A DNA stretch of 49,025 bases, taken from an uncultured Ruminococcus sp. Its GTDB lineage: Bacteria; Bacillota; Clostridia; Oscillospirales; Ruminococcaceae. The stretch's first letter is position 1. Every line of letters begins with the position of its first letter. The notes below the pieces were generated by a model. That model was not told the DNA's origin. It did not search any database and saw nothing but the letters and a program-made list of their open reading frames with translations. Location: contig CASDRM010000010.1 in assembly GCA_949283135.1 (NCBI GenBank), positions 1-49,025 of the forward strand, written 5' to 3'. A program made the translations under genes and the position numbers. Positions 18,055 through 25,461 of the stretch are shown piece after piece.

Positions 18055-18420
18055 TGAGCTTGCGAGTAAGCTATACGGCAGCGGCTGCCGCCTTGGCGGC
18101 AGATGAGGAAAGTCCGAGCACCATAGAGCAGGGTAGCTGATAACATCAGCCGAGGGCGACCTTAGGGAAAGTGCAACAGAAATAAACCGCCGCGAAAGCG
18201 GTAAGGATGGAAAGGCGAGGTAAGAGCTCACCGAGGCGCGGGTGACCGCGCTGTCATGTAAACCCTATCCGGTGCAACACCGATTGGTTCAGCATGTCAT
18301 AACGTCTGCTCGGCGGATATGCTGTTAAAGGTGGCTTGATCTTTGCGGCGACGCAAAGGGTAGATAGATTGCCGTACTCGACAGAACTCGGCTTACAGGC
18401 TTAGTCGCACAGCTCATGAG
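18055..18420 (+). ncRNA. rnpB: RNase P RNA
   Basis: Catalytic RNA that trims tRNA 5' leaders. Universally conserved blocks are present in order: GAGGAAAGTCCGAGCACC (CR I), AGGGAAAGTGCAACAGAAA with AAACCGCC (CR II/III), the GGTAAGGATGGAAAGGCGAGG region, GTAAACCC, and ACAGAACTCGGCTTACAGGC near the 3' end (CR V). P1 closes the molecule: TGAGCT-TGCGA-TAAGC at 18055-18071 pairs with 18399-18416. The exact ends are estimated from P1. The shape appears to be type A. Confidence 0.95.
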
Positions 18421-18471
18421 TTTTACGGGGGGAAAAGCTCCCGGGTATATAATTTGGAACGGAAGATGAGT

Positions 18472-19122
18472 ATGTTAAAAATCAAATTTGCGATATGTGT
18501 CGCCGTGCTTATGGCGGTCAGCCTTGTATGCCTTTGCGGCTGCGGCTCAGAGCCGATAAATAACGAGCTCCCTGTCGAAAATGAAGTGGGGGTCGAAGGC
18601 TTTAACACCTCCTATGGGGTAAGCCTGCCCGGGTATTATGTCAGGGTGGTAAGCGATGTCAGCGAAGGGGACAAGGTGGTTCAGAGAAACTTCTATGTCT
18701 GCACTGACGAGGAGATGACAAAGGCGGTCGGAACACTTACCGCTTCCTACGGAGAAAACGAGGAGCTTACCGGCTATGAGGCTGTTATTGGAGTGATTGC
18801 GGTGGAAAAGCTGGTAACCTACAGCGTAGTGGATGGTGTCAGCAGCTTTTATTCTGAAATCAATTTCAGTGCCGAGGGTATCACCGAAAGCTCGAGCTGG
18901 AAGAATATAGTTATTGACTCGGATGCAGGCGAGACCGCCACATACATTGGAACTCAGAGCTACTATTCGGACGGAAGCGAGCATGTGTACAGAGAGGAAA
19001 AGTATGTCTCGGCAGACGTCGGCGAGTATCTTGAGAGCGTCACCGAGAGGGAGTACGACGAATCGGGAAAGATGATATCCGAGAATATCACAAACTATGA
19101 TAAGGACGGAAACGAGCTGTGA
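18472..19122 (+). CDS. Small lipoprotein of unknown function
   Basis: A 216-residue secreted lipoprotein. Residues 1-23 form a hydrophobic signal, followed by the lipobox L-C-G-C with the modified Cys near 24, so it should sit on the outer face of the membrane. The mature part is acidic, beta-rich and has no motif I recognise. The end (YDESGKMISENITNYDKDGN) resembles the short YD-type strand repeats seen in other Clostridial lipoproteins. A TTG at 18454 opens the frame, but GGAAG lies six bases before ATG 18472, which gives a proper signal peptide. It starts about 50 nt after RNase P RNA; the weak GC-rich hairpin between them may not fully end transcription. Confidence 0.72.
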   Translation: MLKIKFAICVAVLMAVSLVCLCGCGSEPINNELPVENEVGVEGFNTSYGVSLPGYYVRVVSDVSEGDKVVQRNFYVCTDEEMTKAVGTLTASYGENEELTGYEAVIGVIAVEKLVTYSVVDGVSSFYSEINFSAEGITESSSWKNIVIDSDAGETATYIGTQSYYSDGSEHVYREEKYVSADVGEYLESVTEREYDESGKMISENITNYDKDGNEL

Positions 19123-19168
19123 TAATATCGCGCCGCCTGTAAAAAACGGATGTAATTATTGATGAAAG

Positions 19169-19200
19169 CGCACTCTTTGCCGGGTGCGTTTTTCTTTTTT
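19169..19200 (+). terminator. Intrinsic terminator after the lipoprotein
   Basis: A short stem, CGCAC/GTGCG with a 10-nt loop, is followed by TTTTTCTTTTTT. Confidence 0.65.
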
Positions 19201-19264
19201 CCCTTTAATTGGGCGGAAAAGGACAATTTTTTATTTATTTAACTGTCTGATACTCAAAAACAGG

Positions 19265-19293
19265 TTGACAAACCCCCGCGATTATGATAACTT
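19265..19293 (+). promoter_or_regulatory. Sigma-A promoter of the polyamine operon leader
   Basis: TTGACA (19265-19270), 17-nt spacer, TAACTT (19288-19293). The first gene starts about 520 nt downstream, so a very long leader is made. Confidence 0.7.
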
Positions 19294-19299
19294 TAGCTT

Positions 19300-19475
19300 A
19301 ATGGGAAACTAAATAGGTATCTCTTAGAGGTCTTCCAGGTGAGTATTTTATTTGACCGCAGCCCCAAAATGTTTTTTAGGAGTCGGTCAACTGCCGAGCG
19401 CGGCAAAGTCGCGCTGTTGATAAATGATGAACAGTGAAAGGTGTTTCATCGTTGAGCGTTATGCTCAGTTTTTAA
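19300..19475 (+). ncRNA. Candidate structured RNA ending in its own terminator
   Basis: No open frame of note. The stretch folds into several local helices: TTGACCG (19352-19358) with CGGTCAA (19384-19390); AGCGCG with CGCGCT around 19397-19415; GATGAA with TTCATC (about 19426-19450); and TGAGC-GTTAT-GCTCA (19453-19467) followed by G then TTTTT, a short intrinsic terminator. With the promoter at 19265 this could be a free RNA of about 175 nt or the first half of a longer leader. It does not match 6S, SRP RNA, tmRNA or the common riboswitch classes I know. Transcript ends are inferred. Confidence 0.5.
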
Positions 19476-19818
19476 GTTGGTCACTATAAACCGGCGTATA
19501 TTCGCCCTAACTTGTAAAACGGTCAATAAGAGTAGTAAAAGCGAAATATTTGCTATATAGACTCTGGATATCCATGCGGTTGTGTCCATGTACAGATGCT
19601 TAAAGTAAGGCTCTGAAAAGCGGACGTTGAAAAGCGTCCGGCGCTGTTCGAGTGCAGAGCTTTCTGAATGTCGGTTTTTGTCGTTTGTAAGCCGCCGGCA
19701 TTTTGGGACATGCTTTTATATTTTGAGGATTAAGTGACGAAAAACAGGTTAGACGCTTGCTTTTCGTCTTTTTTTGTGACCGGATTGGCATTTTTTATCA
19801 TTTTTAAGGAGATATGAG
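19474..19818 (+). promoter_or_regulatory. Second part of the polyamine operon leader, with terminator before the start codon
   Basis: Gene-free leader with further helices: GGCG/CGCC (19493-19505) inside AAGTT/AACTT; GGACG/CGTCC (19622-19639) inside GCTCTG/CAGAGC (about 19610-19660). It ends in a strong intrinsic terminator at 19736-19775, GACGAAAA/TTTTCGTC with T7. The terminator lies 43 nt before the start codon of the arginine decarboxylase gene, so transcription into the operon should be conditional. The segment GGTTTTTGTC (19672-19682) can pair with most of the terminator's left arm and may be an antiterminator. The ligand or sensor is unknown; no T-box core is present. Confidence 0.6.
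19736..19775 (+). terminator. Leader terminator of the polyamine operon
   Basis: GACGAAAA (19736-19743) pairs with TTTTCGTC (19761-19768), followed by seven T. It stands upstream of the ribosome site AAGGAGATATGAG, the arrangement of an attenuator. Confidence 0.8.
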
Positions 19819-21273
19819 ATGGGAAATCAGTACAGGGCGCCGATATATGATGCACTCGAGGAGTTCAGAAAAAACAGGGTCGTTCCCTTTGATGTGCCCG
19901 GACACAAGAGAGGAAGAGGAAACCCGGAGCTTGTAAAGCTTTTGGGAAAGCAGTGCGTGGAGCTTGACGTCAACTCAATGAAGCCGCTTGATAACCTTTG
20001 TCACCCTGTGTCGGTCATAAAGGAAGCGGAGGAGCTTGCCGCCGAGGCGTTCGGCGCGGCGTACGCGTTTTTAATGGTGGGAGGCACTACCTCTGCGGTT
20101 CAGTCCATGGTTCTGACTGCGAGCAAAAAGGGAGAGAAGATAATACTCCCAAGAAACGTACACAGGAGCGTCATCAACGCGCTGGTCGTAAACGGAGCGA
20201 CGCCCATCTATGTCAACCCTGATGTGGATAAAAAGCTCGGCATAGCCCTTGGGATGAAGATATCTCAGGTTGAAAAAGCGATAGAGGAGAACCCTGACGC
20301 CGTCGCAATACTGGTGAATAACCCTACTTATTACGGCATATGCTCAAACCTTAAAAAAATTGTGGAGCTTGCGCACGCCCATAACATGATGGTGCTTGTC
20401 GACGAGGCACACGGAACGCATTTTTATTTCGGCGAGGACATGCCCATAAGTGCTATGGCGGCCGGAGCGGATATGGCGAGCGTGAGCATGCACAAGTCGG
20501 GAGGAAGCCTGACGCAGAGCTCGTTTCTTCTCACGGGACCCGGCGTAAGCCCGGGATATGTAAGGCAGGTAATAAACCTGACGCAGACGACGAGCGCGTC
20601 CTATCTTTTGCTTGCCAGCCTTGATATATCCCGCAGAAACCTTGCTATAAGGGGCAAGGAGGCGTTTGCCGAGGTAGAGAGGATAGCGGACTACGCGAGA
20701 ACCGAGATAAACAAGATAGGCGGCTATTACGCCTATGGCGAGGAGCTTATAAACGGGGACAGCGTCTATGATTTTGATACCACCAAGCTGACGGTTTACA
20801 CCCTCGACATAGGGCTCGCGGGGATAGAGGTATATGATCTTCTTCGTGACGAGTACGACATACAGGTGGAGCTGGGCGACATCGGAAACATACTCGCGTA
20901 CATTTCCATAGGCGACAGGATGAGGGAAACGGAAAGGCTTGTCAGCGCGCTCCACGACATACGCCGCAGGTATCAGCGCGACAAGACCGGTCTTTTGGAC
21001 AGAGAGTATATTTCCCCGCAGGTGGTAATGACTCCTCAGGAGGCGTTTTACTCGGCCAAGGAGGAGATGATACCGATAGAGCAGACGGAGGACAGGATCT
21101 GCACCGAGTTTGTTATGTGCTATCCGCCTGGAATACCGATACTTGCCCCCGGCGAGAGGATAACAAGAGAGATAATCGACTACATCCTTTATGCCAAGGA
21201 AAAGGGCTGTTCCATTACCGGACCTGAGGACGAAAAGGTGGAAAGGCTCAACGTAATCAGGGAGAGGCTTTGA
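19819..21273 (+). CDS. speA: Arginine decarboxylase (Orn/Lys/Arg decarboxylase family, short form)
   Basis: PLP enzyme of fold type I, 484 residues, the size of Bacillus SpeA rather than the larger biodegradative enzymes. Expected to decarboxylate arginine to agmatine; lysine or ornithine cannot be excluded by motif alone, but the downstream agmatinase-type gene argues for arginine. Landmarks: VPGHKRGRGNPEL near residue 33, GGTTSAVQSMV (cofactor phosphate), PRNVHRSVINAL, VDEAHGTHFYF with the Asp and His that hold the pyridine ring, and SMHKSGGSLTQSS with the Schiff-base Lys near 226. AAGGAG precedes ATG 19819 by eight bases. It heads a five-gene polyamine operon behind a long attenuator-like leader. 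Confidence 0.88.
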   Translation: MGNQYRAPIYDALEEFRKNRVVPFDVPGHKRGRGNPELVKLLGKQCVELDVNSMKPLDNLCHPVSVIKEAEELAAEAFGAAYAFLMVGGTTSAVQSMVLTASKKGEKIILPRNVHRSVINALVVNGATPIYVNPDVDKKLGIALGMKISQVEKAIEENPDAVAILVNNPTYYGICSNLKKIVELAHAHNMMVLVDEAHGTHFYFGEDMPISAMAAGADMASVSMHKSGGSLTQSSFLLTGPGVSPGYVRQVINLTQTTSASYLLLASLDISRRNLAIRGKEAFAEVERIADYARTEINKIGGYYAYGEELINGDSVYDFDTTKLTVYTLDIGLAGIEVYDLLRDEYDIQVELGDIGNILAYISIGDRMRETERLVSALHDIRRRYQRDKTGLLDREYISPQVVMTPQEAFYSAKEEMIPIEQTEDRICTEFVMCYPPGIPILAPGERITREIIDYILYAKEKGCSITGPEDEKVERLNVIRERL

Positions 21274-21287
21274 AAGGGAGCGTTTAG

Positions 21288-22151
21288 ATGGAATTTTGGT
21301 TTTCTGAAATGCACACGCCGAGAGTGAAGCTCTCGGTTCAGGTAGACAGGCAGCTGTACAGCGAGGAAAATGAATATATACGCCTTGATATATTTGAATC
21401 ACCGGAGTTTGGAAGGTTTCTGACGGTTGACGGCTATATCATCACTACCGAAAGAGACGAGTTTATATATCACGAAATGATGACTCATGTTCCGATGGCT
21501 GTGCACCCCGACCCGAGGAAGATACTTGTCTTCGGAGCGGGAGACGGAGGCGTGGTGCGTGAGCTTTTAAAGTATCCTGACGTTGAGCAGATAGACATGG
21601 TCGAGGTGAACGAGGGCGTAGTAGAGGCGTGCATGAAGTACCTGCCATTCAGCGCAAGCGGGCTTACAGACCCAAAGGTCACCATATATTCTGACAATTC
21701 GCTGAGGTTTATAAGGCATATAGAGAACGAGTACGATGTTATAATAGTCGACTCCGCCGGATTTTACGGACCGGGAGAGAGCCTTCTTTCGAGGGAATTT
21801 TACGGAAGCTGCTACAAGGCGCTCAAGGACGACGGCATAATGGTAAACCAGCACCAGAGCCCGTTTTATGACGAGGACAGGCTGGAGACCCAGAAGGCTC
21901 ACAAGCGCATAGTCGAGAGCTTTCCTATAAGCAGGGTCTATCAGGCGCATATACCATCCTATCCGTCCGGCTACTGGCTGTTCGGCTTCGCGTCAAAAGG
22001 CTACCATCCGGTAAAGGATCTCAGGGCGAAGAAGTGGAAGTCATTAAACATAGAAACCCGCTACTATACTCTCAACCTGCACAGAGGCTGCTTTGCGCTG
22101 CCAGCCTATGTGGAGAGAATGCTTGAGGATGTTGAGAACATTCCGGACTGA
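21288..22151 (+). CDS. speE: Spermidine synthase-like aminopropyltransferase
   Basis: Family enzyme that moves an aminopropyl group from decarboxylated S-adenosylmethionine to an amine. 287 residues, full length. Conserved parts: N-terminal beta domain, TTERDEFIYHEMMTHVP, the Rossmann loop GAGDGGVVRELLKY, and VEVNEGVVEACMKYLP. Where E. coli has DCTDPIGPGESLF and Bacillus DSTEPVGPA, this protein has DSAGFYGPGESLL: the first Asp is kept but the second acidic residue, which contacts the amine acceptor, is gone. The acceptor may therefore differ from putrescine. No speD is present in this window to supply its donor. Fourteen bases after speA; RBS AAAGGGAG. Confidence 0.85.
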   Translation: MEFWFSEMHTPRVKLSVQVDRQLYSEENEYIRLDIFESPEFGRFLTVDGYIITTERDEFIYHEMMTHVPMAVHPDPRKILVFGAGDGGVVRELLKYPDVEQIDMVEVNEGVVEACMKYLPFSASGLTDPKVTIYSDNSLRFIRHIENEYDVIIVDSAGFYGPGESLLSREFYGSCYKALKDDGIMVNQHQSPFYDEDRLETQKAHKRIVESFPISRVYQAHIPSYPSGYWLFGFASKGYHPVKDLRAKKWKSLNIETRYYTLNLHRGCFALPAYVERMLEDVENIPD

Positions 22152-22170: not shown

Positions 22171-23028
22171 ATGCTTGAGAAAAATATAGAAACATTTATA
22201 GCCTGCAACTGCGAATATGAGGACTCGGATATCGTGCTTTTCGGAGCGCCGTTTGATTCCACGACCTCTTTCCGCCCCGGAACAAGATTCGCAAGCCACG
22301 CGATAAGAAGCGAGTCATACGGGCTTGAAACATACAGTCCCTATCAGGACAAAGACCTTGCAGACTGCAAGGTGTTCGACAGCGGAGACATAGAGCTATG
22401 CATGGGCTCGAGCGAAATAGCGCTGGAGCAGATATCCGACAGAGCGGCGCGCATACTTCTTGACGGCAAGCTGCCGATTATGATAGGCGGAGAGCACCTT
22501 GTAACGCTCGGAATGTTCCGCGAGGTATACAAGAAGCACCCCGACGTGCAGATAATACACTTTGACGCGCACGCCGACCTGAGGCAGGAGTATCTCGGGG
22601 CGGAGCTTTCCCACGCCTGCGTGATAAAAAGATGTCATGACCTCGTCGGCGACGGAAGGATACATCAGTTCGGCATACGCTCGGGAGACAGGAGCGAGTT
22701 TGTGTGGTCGTCAAACGGTCATACCGATATGCACAGGTTTGGCTTTGACGGACTTGAGGAGACTGTCAGCGCGCTTGGCGACACGCCGGTGTACTTTACC
22801 ATCGACCTTGACATACTCGACCCGTCGGTGTTCCCGGGAACCGGAACTCCGGAGGCGGGAGGCGTCGGCTTTATGGAGCTGCTTAACGCGATCATGACGG
22901 TTTGCGGCTCGGCAAATGTGGTGGCATGCGACGTAAACGAGCTCAGTCCTCATTACGATCAGAGCGGCGCTTCCACTGCGGTTGCCTGCAAGGTCGTAAG
23001 AGAGCTTATACTTGCTCTGCAAAAATAA
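22171..23028 (+). CDS. speB: Agmatinase-type ureohydrolase
   Basis: Binuclear manganese hydrolase of the arginase/agmatinase superfamily, 285 residues. All metal ligands are visible: GGEHLVT (His), HFDAHADLR (Asp-His-Asp), and TIDLDILDPS (two Asp), followed by GTGTPEAGG and the ACDVNELSP strand. It removes urea from agmatine to give putrescine. In this operon it may instead act on N1-aminopropylagmatine to give spermidine, as family members do in some bacteria. Motifs do not separate the two. RBS GAGGG lies before ATG 22171, 19 nt after speE. Confidence 0.88.
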   Translation: MLEKNIETFIACNCEYEDSDIVLFGAPFDSTTSFRPGTRFASHAIRSESYGLETYSPYQDKDLADCKVFDSGDIELCMGSSEIALEQISDRAARILLDGKLPIMIGGEHLVTLGMFREVYKKHPDVQIIHFDAHADLRQEYLGAELSHACVIKRCHDLVGDGRIHQFGIRSGDRSEFVWSSNGHTDMHRFGFDGLEETVSALGDTPVYFTIDLDILDPSVFPGTGTPEAGGVGFMELLNAIMTVCGSANVVACDVNELSPHYDQSGASTAVACKVVRELILALQK

Positions 23029-23049: not shown

Positions 23050-24315
23050 ATGGGAAAATTATTGGTAATAGGCTGCGGCGGAGTTGCGAGTGTTGCCATT
23101 CAGAAGTGCGCCGCGAATTACGAGGTGTTTGACGAGATAATGATAGCGAGCCGCACGGTATCCAAGTGCGATGCTCTCAAGAAAAAGCTTGAGGACGAAA
23201 AAAGGACAAAGGCGAAAATATCCACGGCGCGTGTCGATGCTGATAATACAGAAGAGCTTATAAAGCTTATCAGCGGCTTCAAGCCAGAGGTGGTTCTGAA
23301 CCTCGCGCTGCCGTATCAGGATCTTACTATAATGGACGCCTGCCTCAGGGCGGGAGTAAACTATGTGGACACCGCCAACTACGAGGCGGAGAACACCTCC
23401 GACCCGGAGTGGCGGAGCGTCTACGAGAAGAGATGCCGCGAGGAGGGCTTTACCGCCTATTTCGACTACTCGTGGCAGTGGGCGTATCAGGACAAATTTA
23501 AGGACGCGGGTCTGACGGCCTTACTGGGAAGCGGCTTTGATCCAGGCGTCACGAGCGTGTTCTCAGCGTACGCTTTGAAGCATTATTTTGATGAGATCCA
23601 TTATATAGATATACTTGACTGCAACGGCGGCGACCACGGATATCCGTTTGCCACCAATTTCAACCCCGAAATAAACCTGCGTGAGGTCTCGGCAAACGGC
23701 TCATACTGGGAAAACGGACACTGGGTCGAGACAAAGCCGATGGAGATAAAGCGTGAGTACGATTTTGACGGCGTCGGCAAAAAGGACATGTACCTTCTGC
23801 ACCATGAGGAGATAGAGTCGCTTGCAAAGAACATTCCCGGAGTTAAAAGGATCCGCTTCTTCATGACCTTCGGTCAGAGCTATTTAACGCACATGAAGTG
23901 CCTTGAAAACGTAGGAATGCTCGGCACCGAGCCGGTTATGTACGAGGGCAGGGAGATAGTACCGATACAGTTTTTGAAGGCGCTTTTGCCTGATCCGGCG
24001 TCGCTCGGTCCGCGCACGGTAGGAAAGACGAACATCGGCTGCATCTTTACCGGAGTTAAGGATGGAAAAGAAAAGTCAATATACATCTACAACATCTGCG
24101 ATCATCAGGAGTGCTATAAGGAGGTAGGATCTCAGGCCATATCCTATACCACCGGCGTGCCTGCTATGATAGGCGCGATGCTCGTGATGAACGGCGAGTG
24201 GAGAAAGCCGGGCGTTTACAATCTTGAGGAGTTTGATCCCGATCCGTTTATGGACGCGCTCAACAAGTGGGGGCTCCCGTGGGTGGTGGATGAAAACCCG
24301 ACGCTGGTGGAGTAA
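23050..24315 (+). CDS. Carboxynorspermidine/carboxyspermidine dehydrogenase-type enzyme (saccharopine dehydrogenase family)
   Basis: NAD(P)-dependent enzyme that joins an amine (diaminopropane, putrescine or agmatine) to aspartate beta-semialdehyde by reductive condensation. 421 residues. The N-terminal Rossmann fold begins LLVIGCGGVASVAIQKCA, followed by IASRTVSKCDALKKKL; NLALPYQDLTIMDACLRAGVNYVDTANYE is typical of the saccharopine dehydrogenase group. GSGFDPGVTSVFSAYALKHYFDEIHYIDILDCNGGDHG is characteristic of the CANSDH subgroup. The adjacent downstream gene encodes the matching decarboxylase, and the upstream genes make agmatine, so the acceptor could be putrescine or agmatine. RBS AAAGGGAG before ATG 23050. 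Confidence 0.88.
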   Translation: MGKLLVIGCGGVASVAIQKCAANYEVFDEIMIASRTVSKCDALKKKLEDEKRTKAKISTARVDADNTEELIKLISGFKPEVVLNLALPYQDLTIMDACLRAGVNYVDTANYEAENTSDPEWRSVYEKRCREEGFTAYFDYSWQWAYQDKFKDAGLTALLGSGFDPGVTSVFSAYALKHYFDEIHYIDILDCNGGDHGYPFATNFNPEINLREVSANGSYWENGHWVETKPMEIKREYDFDGVGKKDMYLLHHEEIESLAKNIPGVKRIRFFMTFGQSYLTHMKCLENVGMLGTEPVMYEGREIVPIQFLKALLPDPASLGPRTVGKTNIGCIFTGVKDGKEKSIYIYNICDHQECYKEVGSQAISYTTGVPAMIGAMLVMNGEWRKPGVYNLEEFDPDPFMDALNKWGLPWVVDENPTLVE

Positions 24316-24318
24316 GCG

Positions 24319-25461
24319 ATGTTTACTGATGAGGTCAGAACTCCCTGCTACGTTATAGACGAGGACAGGTTAGAGAAAAATCTCAGGGTGCTCAGGGGCG
24401 TCATGGACAGAACCGGCTGCAAAATTCTTCTCGCCCAGAAGGCGTTCAGCAGCTATGCCGTCTATCCCCTTATCGCAGAATACCTCTGCGGCGCGGCAGC
24501 GAGCGGAATATATGAGGCAAGGCTGTGCCGCGATAAGATGCCCGGCAAGGAAAACCACATTTTTTCTCCCGCGTTCAGGGAGGAGGATATGGAAGAGATT
24601 TTAAGCATCTGCGACCATATCGTTTTTAACTCCGTCAGACAGCTTGAGCTTTACGGAAAGAGGGCAAGGTCCGCCGGCTTGCAGGTGGGACTCAGGATAA
24701 ATCCGGAAAAATCAACGCAGGAGGGTCACGCGATATACGATCCGTGCGCGCCCGGAAGCAGACTCGGCACCACCTTAAAAGAGCTTGAGAAGGGCTTGAC
24801 AGAAAAGCCGGAGCTTTTAGAGCTGCTTGACGGGCTGCACTTTCACACGCTTTGTGAGCAGAATTCAGACGCGCTTGAGCTGACGCTCGAGGCTGTGGAA
24901 GATAAATTCGGAAAATATCTGCCCGGGATGAAATGGATAAACTTCGGCGGCGGGCATCACATTACCCGCAGGGATTATGATATACCGAGGCTGGAAAGGT
25001 GTATACTTCACATGAAGAACGCCTACGGCTTGGAGGTATATCTCGAGCCGGGGGAGGCGATTGCGCTTAACGCCGGATACCTTGTCACTACCGTGCTTGA
25101 GCTTCAGAAAAAGGACAGAATGATAGCTATCCTCGACACCTCGGCAGCCTGCCATATGCCGGACGTCATCGAGATGCCGTACCGTCCGCCGCTCCGGGAA
25201 AGCGGCGAGCCGGGTGAAAAGGCATACACCTACACTTTCGGAGGACCGACCTGTTTAGCCGGAGATATCATCGGAACTTATTCCTTTGACCGCGAGCTTA
25301 AAGAGGGTGACAGGCTGGTGTTTGAGGACATGGCGATATACTCAATGGTCAAAAACAACACCTTTAACGGTATGCCGCTGCCCGACATCTATATAAAGCG
25401 GGGAGACACATGCAGACTTTGGAAACGCTTTGGCTATGAGGATTTTATTGCAAGGCTATGA
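24319..25461 (+). CDS. nspC: Carboxynorspermidine/carboxyspermidine decarboxylase
   Basis: PLP enzyme of fold type III (alanine racemase-like), 380 residues. It decarboxylates the product of the preceding dehydrogenase, giving spermidine, norspermidine or aminopropylagmatine depending on the substrate. Visible: TPCYVIDEDRLEKNL at the N terminus, the Schiff-base Lys in LLAQKAFS (K41), RINPEKSTQ, GLHFHTLCEQ, NFGGGHH (phosphate-binding Gly run), LEPGEA, and GGPTCLAGD with the catalytic Cys. Starts three bases after the dehydrogenase gene with its ribosome site inside that gene, so the two are translationally linked. Last gene of the operon, closed by the long inverted repeat at 25487-25535. Confidence 0.9.
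   Translation: MFTDEVRTPCYVIDEDRLEKNLRVLRGVMDRTGCKILLAQKAFSSYAVYPLIAEYLCGAAASGIYEARLCRDKMPGKENHIFSPAFREEDMEEILSICDHIVFNSVRQLELYGKRARSAGLQVGLRINPEKSTQEGHAIYDPCAPGSRLGTTLKELEKGLTEKPELLELLDGLHFHTLCEQNSDALELTLEAVEDKFGKYLPGMKWINFGGGHHITRRDYDIPRLERCILHMKNAYGLEVYLEPGEAIALNAGYLVTTVLELQKKDRMIAILDTSAACHMPDVIEMPYRPPLRESGEPGEKAYTYTFGGPTCLAGDIIGTYSFDRELKEGDRLVFEDMAIYSMVKNNTFNGMPLPDIYIKRGDTCRLWKRFGYEDFIARL

Follow-up and report, generated by a model that had tools for sequence, protein, structure and literature searches.

The leader in front of the speA operon in the window (the whole stretch of DNA analysed, 49,025 nt) is the local copy of a structured RNA of about 200 nt that is found across Bacillota, and we infer with high confidence that it is a transcription attenuator dedicated to polyamine genes, both real and widespread. 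The further reading that this attenuator responds to polyamines, most likely as a riboswitch for spermidine or a close polyamine, is put forward as probable only, in the absence of binding or expression data. The element is a candidate new riboswitch class, one 54-nt fragment of which is already in Rfam under another description.

A conserved RNA upstream of polyamine genes

The first-pass annotation of this DNA described a promoter at 19265-19293, a long gene-free leader and a strong intrinsic terminator before speA. The stretch at 19313-19818 on the + strand indeed holds no convincing gene, and the terminator had been placed exactly, at 19736-19775, with its end 43 nt upstream of the speA ATG at 19819. 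The promoter stood in part: the -35 hexamer is good and the same arrangement is found in the same-genus leaders L002 and L003, but the promoter was not listed by a consensus scan and is plausible yet weak at -10, since TAACTT, although correctly spaced, matches only three of six consensus positions. The leader folds more stably than every one of 100 dinucleotide shuffles (z -3.4), but so, with z -3.1, does the minus strand, and folding energy by itself is therefore not decisive. The linker at 19567-19735 is longer than those of most relatives. A leader peptide was rejected, as no conserved open frame is evident, and it is further disfavoured by length changes of 1-2 nt among relatives and by variable hairpins. 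A free large ncRNA of the OLE or ROOL type was also ruled out for the element, because it is nearly always followed by a polyamine gene and the core is about 200 nt long. Farther upstream, a bacterial RNase P RNA of class A (18063-18411, + strand, 267.8 bits) lies about 900 nt 5′ of the leader promoter; between this RNA and the leader is a putative lipoprotein ORF (18454-19122, + strand, 222 aa) without a Pfam match, which is followed by a terminator-like hairpin at 19164-19193.

Table 1 Features of the leader and the downstream operon, in window coordinates.
Feature	Position	Strand	Basis or remark
Promoter, -35 TTGACA (19265-19270) and weak -10 TAACTT (19288-19293)	19265-19293	+	Sequence
Leader, local copy of the conserved structured RNA	19326-19775	+	Upstream of speA
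P0 (long-range helix), 5′ strand (AGAGGUCUUCCAGGUGAGUAUUUU)	19326-19349	+	Partner is P6 loop plus 3′ strand; duplex -10.0 kcal/mol
5′ subdomain, stem UUGACC/GGUCAA and conserved CUGCCGA	19352-19397	+	RF02440 counterpart
P3 hairpin (GCGCGgcaaagtCGCGC)	19396-19415	+	Fold; counterparts in 95 relatives, mean z -3.9
P1, 5′ strand (UGUUGAUAA)	19415-19423	+	Pairs with 19522-19528; manual comparison, relatives UUAUUGA/UCAAUAA
Clade-specific extra hairpin inside P1 (AUGAUGAA...UUUCAUC)	19424-19450	+	Fold; alignment with L002-L004
Conserved core (P1 3′ side, P2, P4, P5, P6)	19447-19566	+	Model R1, 66.7 bits, E 5e-13
P2 hairpin (UUGAG...CUCAG)	19452-19468	+	Covaries in relatives; 5/5 pairs with double-sided changes
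P4, 5′ strand (UUAAGUUGG)	19472-19480	+	Conserved
P5 hairpin (GGCGuauauuCGCC)	19493-19506	+	Most variable and most covarying helix of relatives
P4, 3′ strand, the switching strand (CUAACUUGU)	19507-19515	+	Alternative partner of the terminator 5′ arm
P1, 3′ strand (GUCAAUA)	19522-19528	+	
P6 hairpin (AGAGU-AGUAA...UUGCU-AUAUAG-ACUCU)	19529-19565	+	Conserved AUAUAG bulge
Linker with local hairpins	19567-19735	+	Not conserved; includes 19673-19682; alignment of L002-L004
Intrinsic terminator (GACGAAAA...UUUUCGUC and U7)	19736-19775	+	Hairpin -13.8 kcal/mol, then T7
Antiterminator partner within the terminator 5′ arm (ACAGGUUAG)	19744-19752	+	
speA-like Orn/Lys/Arg decarboxylase	19819-21273	+	PF01276, PF03711
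speE, polyamine aminopropyltransferase	21288-22151	+	NF002010 above cut-off
speB, agmatinase	22171-23028	+	TIGR01230 above cut-off
casdh, carboxy(nor)spermidine dehydrogenase	23050-24315	+	NF043000 419 bits, under 800-bit cut-off; PF03435, PF16653
nspC, carboxy(nor)spermidine decarboxylase	24319-25461	+	TIGR01047 above cut-off

In a first survey, a DNA search of 60 related genomes, the leader was found in three other members of the genus and its core was common to eight further families of the order, with identity of up to 95% across the 55 most conserved bases; all loci sharing the core precede speA, speD-speA or a potA-like gene. A covariance model, R1 (128 positions, 37 pairs), was built from eight relatives outside the genus with the window excluded. 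R1 matches were obtained in 79 of the 295 order genomes and in 24 of the 398 phylum genomes, never more than one per genome, and the element is single-copy in the genome of the window as well. The cores of four loci (L009, L037, L038 and L088) are about 15-20 nt longer than the others, and L009 carries an additional segment that repeats AAGUUGG next to P4 and resembles a partial duplication of the P4 5′ strand.

Alignment of leaders from relatives, which had been proposed as a way of finding covarying pairs, revealed both covariation and conservation. Across 83 distinct sequences in the R1 alignment, standard pairing was found in 95.5% of pair cells, 22 of the 37 pairs showed double-sided changes (7.7 in shuffles), and pairing dropped to 30-46% when the partner was shifted by one to three columns. 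Because the alignment was fitted to that structure, these counts are biased toward it; swap tests, in which own partners are compared with swapped ones, are independent of this fitting. In P6, AGAGU/ACUCU is replaced by AGAGC/GCUCU in relatives. For the long-range helix P0, the 5′ segment of relatives is specifically complementary to P6 (z -2.6, 129 loci), and own pairs are better than swapped ones (p 5e-19). This complementarity stretches toward GACUCU, the transcript 5′ end being of the type AGAGUCU...AGCAAAUAUU; the transcript 5′ end mimics the 5′ strand of P6 itself, and the P6 3′ strand therefore has two possible partners, P0 and P6.

The genes that follow the element, identified with the support of Pfam and NCBIfam, were surveyed at 180 loci. 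The next gene is speD at 66, speA at 62, casdh at 25 and potA at 20, so that 173 of the 180 loci lie directly upstream of polyamine genes, meeting the riboswitch criterion that the controlled genes fit one metabolite; four of the seven loci without a recognised gene are contig ends or short stretches. The gene set spans arginine/ornithine decarboxylation, AdoMet decarboxylation, the AdoMet-independent carboxyspermidine route and a spermidine/putrescine importer. Degenerate copies that have lost P4 pairing were observed at L111 (core 629-763) and L112 (core 663-797), where the next gene encodes an unknown membrane protein of 294 aa and speA follows in the same orientation some 3 kb farther on. 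At L106 (core 620-731), a copy with a damaged P6 precedes an M28-family peptidase lipoprotein and no polyamine gene.

Presence of the element follows presence of speA. Within the genus, exactly four genomes carry the leader, those with a speA orthologue, and 27 others lack both. In the order, 89 genomes have a close speA, and the core was detected in 66 of them but not in the remaining 23; of the 206 genomes that lack a close speA, 13 carry the core (p 1e-32). When 12 speA loci from core-negative genomes were searched with filters off, no core was found, with one match to RF02440. The element is dedicated to polyamine genes yet not universal, since the order-wide co-occurrence with speA is strong but the 12 speA loci checked are coreless. 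Furthermore, a search of named genomes by sequence only, using a 23-nt pattern of the 5′ subdomain and blind to genes, returned at least 118 loci, with the core directly 3′ in 114 of those listed; of the 80 loci checked, 75 had a downstream gene that could be read, in every case a polyamine gene. Faecalibacterium, Gemmiger, Flavonifractor, Blautia, Paenibacillus, Neobacillus, Kurthia, Acidaminococcus, Phascolarctobacterium and a Synergistaceae bin were among the matches listed.

The 5′ subdomain and Rfam family RF02440

An Rfam search of the whole leader, permissive thresholds included, yielded sub-threshold matches only and no T-box match, in line with the first-pass statement that a T-box core is lacking. 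Although nothing in Rfam reaches its cut-off in the leader itself, relatives match RF02440 over 54 nt, and the RNA is thus not altogether without a known counterpart. In the window this family scores 18.9 bits, under its gathering cut-off of 37.2, so that the criterion is not met; the cut-off is reached in seven of eight relatives (38.5-71.5 bits), with the match placed just 5′ of the core, and one main-type copy covers all 54 positions at 71.5 bits. The sub-threshold match in the leader thus proved real through its relatives. RF02440 (SpF59_sRNA, a Streptococcus sRNA, 'ldcC RNA') corresponds in its 54 nt to the 5′ subdomain of the element, but the Rfam model treats this part of the roughly 200-nt element as a free sRNA and includes neither the core nor the terminator nor a regulatory role. 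A match to RF02440 was also observed at L267 (699-763), about 460 nt upstream of speD and with no detectable core, possibly a diverged or broken copy.

The outer stem of RF02440, UGACC/GGUCA, and the AAUGCCGA that follows are met in the window by UUGACC at 19352-19357 and GGUCAACUGCCGA at 19385-19397. In the pattern search, the internal AAGGCCAUACGGACAGCC of the family was absent from the window clade (the window and L002-L004), whereas most of the other loci have it. The GGCCAUACGGACAGCC element of relatives is likewise missing from the 5′ subdomain of the clade, and the extra hairpin in P1 is missing from the other aligned families. Judged by its sequence, the window clade has a reduced variant in which the conserved heart of the 5′ subdomain is lacking: GGCCAUACGGACAGCC has been lost and a hairpin added in P1, though the outer stem and CUGCCGA are kept. 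The closing pair of the 5′ stem covaries (paired in 86 of 101, against 44.5 expected), and the internal hairpin of the subdomain and P3 both have folds much more stable than those of shuffles (z -3.3 and -3.9, respectively). A switch in which the leader UUGACC pairs with the core GGUCAA was considered and rejected, because relatives with GGACC/GGGUCC retain the core GGUCAA unchanged.

Terminator and predicted switching

A strong terminator follows the element at 167 of 177 loci (94%), compared with 12 of 177 shuffled regions. In 147 distinct loci, the left arm of the terminator was compared with each core segment in turn, and its complementarity formed one main peak, over the P4 3′ strand RACUUGUG and the end of P5, with a minor peak at P6. 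The main peak has a mean of -11.0 kcal/mol and z -2.9, with 79% of the loci below -1.5. A locus's own terminator arm pairs better than swapped arms (p 7e-12), and the pairing is strong in each of the four gene classes; in effect, the switch itself covaries.

In the window, CUAACUUGU (19507-19515) can pair with ACAGGUUAG (19744-19752) at -12.4 kcal/mol. By partition function, the antiterminator has a probability of 0.98 and P4 of 0.02 once transcription has reached 19754, with the 3′ arm of the terminator still unmade, and with the terminator complete these give way to 0.995 for P4 and 1.0 for the terminator. P4 and the antiterminator are mutually exclusive because both use the P4 3′ strand, which gives the leader the anatomy of an OFF switch. 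Among relatives, plain thermodynamics puts the antiterminator above 0.5 in just 35%, because P4 is often the stronger helix; kinetics, ions or the choice of partner must therefore play a part. At a minority of loci, L025 and L039 among them, the left arm of the terminator, UGACUCUGG, copies the P6 3′ strand and could pair with AGAGU of P6; from their sequences, arms of this type suggest an alternative antiterminator.

The element meets the riboswitch criteria of a covarying aptamer-like domain in a 5′ leader and of an expression platform exclusive with the aptamer fold. The proposal of the first-pass annotation that the leader is an attenuator deciding whether the polyamine genes are read is thereby supported, by the covarying structure, the gene association, the terminators in 94% of loci and the exclusive antiterminator.

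The following course of events is proposed on the basis of these pairings. RNA polymerase would transcribe the leader ahead of the operon. When polyamine is scarce, CUAACUUGU would quit P4 and pair with ACAGGUUAG in the left arm of the terminator, and the antiterminator so formed would block the terminator and allow the speA-speE-speB-casdh-nspC operon to be read. When polyamine is plentiful, the P0-P6 domain would be stabilised and CUAACUUGU would stay in P4; with P4 intact, the terminator would form and transcription would end before speA.

Likely signal, rival explanations and known systems

The identity of the ligand, direct sensing by the RNA and the OFF direction are inferences, spermidine or a close polyamine being the likeliest ligand. 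A spermidine-type signal is favoured because a SAM-independent spermidine route and an importer are among the genes, and no match to speD was found in the genome of the window. The original guess of a polyamine, arginine or agmatine signal is favoured by the gene contexts as far as polyamines are concerned, but arginine and agmatine are disfavoured because many copies precede only spermidine-branch genes or the importer. SAM derivatives are disfavoured because of the casdh and potA contexts and the lack of a detected speD in the genome. The window operon carries speE (21288-22151) without a detected speD and with the carboxyspermidine route in the same operon, and its aminopropyl donor is unclear. 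With genes for both synthesis and import placed behind a repressing switch, the arrangement is consistent with end-product feedback of the kind described for the SAM-I-variant spermidine riboswitch (PMC10853860).

The rival that survives best, unlikely as we take it to be, is a protein-dependent attenuator, in which an RNA-binding regulator that reports the polyamine level binds the conserved RNA and works the same switch between P4 and the antiterminator. The anatomy of the switch is silent on what stabilises P4, and in so large an element the conserved AUAUAG bulge and CUGCCGA could be protein sites; however, no recurring regulator gene was seen beside the element in the contexts examined, and the core is highly conserved and aptamer-like from Paenibacillus to Oscillospirales and Negativicutes. 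Next comes a riboswitch for another signal of the pathway, namely putrescine, agmatine, arginine, carboxyspermidine or a SAM-derived compound (dcSAM or MTA), which we regard as doubtful. Although most operons are headed by speA or speD, as such signals would have it, the element stands before the carboxyspermidine branch at 25 loci and before the importer at 20, no speD match turned up in the genome of the window, and spermidine-type polyamines alone are common to all four contexts.

A free-standing, trans-acting sRNA with its own promoter and terminator, as the RF02440 label implies, appears very unlikely. RF02440 is named as a Streptococcus sRNA in Rfam, and in S. pneumoniae TIGR4 a 318-nt transcript, SN20, with a predicted promoter and terminator has been mapped to the gap that separates SP0915 from SP0916, ahead of SP0916; it was classed there as an sRNA and, on the strength of a shared motif, surmised to be an FMN switch (PMC2887815). 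SN20 is probably the streptococcal copy of the element, although this identity has not been verified by sequence. Against an sRNA, the element is nearly always directly 5′ of a polyamine gene on the same strand and the terminator arm pairs with the core, and an attenuator also yields a short terminated product. Finally, the pairing of GGTTTTTGTC (19673-19682) with the left arm, noted at first pass, is possible as a duplex of -9.5 kcal/mol and kept in the 97% identical leader of L002, but as the switch or antiterminator it is largely refuted and has next to no standing with us, since it is not the conserved switching strand, is gone from the more diverged L003 and L004, which retain the element, has a pairing probability of about 1e-5 and is outdone by the P4 3′ strand (-12.4 versus -9.5 kcal/mol).

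If the favoured reading, a riboswitch for spermidine or a close polyamine, is true, the element is a common polyamine riboswitch class, much more frequent than the spermidine riboswitch already known, with its 13 examples, and present in gut genera (Faecalibacterium, Gemmiger, Blautia and Flavonifractor) as well as in soil bacilli. It would give a handle on the control of polyamine output by gut bacteria and offer ready-made constructs for testing how selective sensing by an RNA is possible when the cation in question binds all RNA non-specifically. In addition, the results amend the Rfam entry RF02440, in which 54 nt of a larger element are labelled a small RNA.

In the literature searched, in which subscription journals and bioRxiv were thinly covered, no report linked the element to a riboswitch or polyamine-switch function. 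Candidate cis RNAs upstream of polyamine genes have been described before. The odc1 and potE motifs (PMC8632094) share this position, but odc1 is an alpha-proteobacterial hairpin with a pseudoknot and a uORF, and the potE motif is confined to Veillonella and precedes potE; as described, the architecture of neither is that of the element. The speF motif is likewise a cis element before a polyamine decarboxylase gene, but belongs to another bacterial group, the alpha-proteobacteria (PMC11477304), and no such Rfam match was found in the window leader or the eight relatives. One rare class, the SAM-I-variant spermidine riboswitch with 13 examples, has been reported (Salvail et al. 2023, PMC10853860); according to the same authors, polyamine riboswitches had long been sought and more classes must exist. 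That riboswitch resembles the element in standing before polyamine genes, in switching OFF by premature termination and in its proposed ligand, spermidine, but it has the four-stem SAM-I fold, and its size, helices and conserved bases are unlike those of the element (PMC10853860). No SAM-I match was found at the gathering threshold in the window or the eight relatives, nor at E up to 10 within 19200-19850. We lean, somewhat less firmly than toward a polyamine-responsive attenuator as such, to the reading that the element is a second natural class of polyamine riboswitch, architecturally unrelated to the first and far more widespread, of about 200 nt in two domains, with the window holding a reduced variant. 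On this same reading, the P6 3′ strand would choose between P0 and P6 and the P4 3′ strand between P4 and the terminator arm, and the class would control spermidine synthesis by the aminopropyl and carboxyspermidine routes and polyamine import in Oscillospirales, Lachnospiraceae, Bacillaceae, Paenibacillaceae, Negativicutes and probably Streptococcus.
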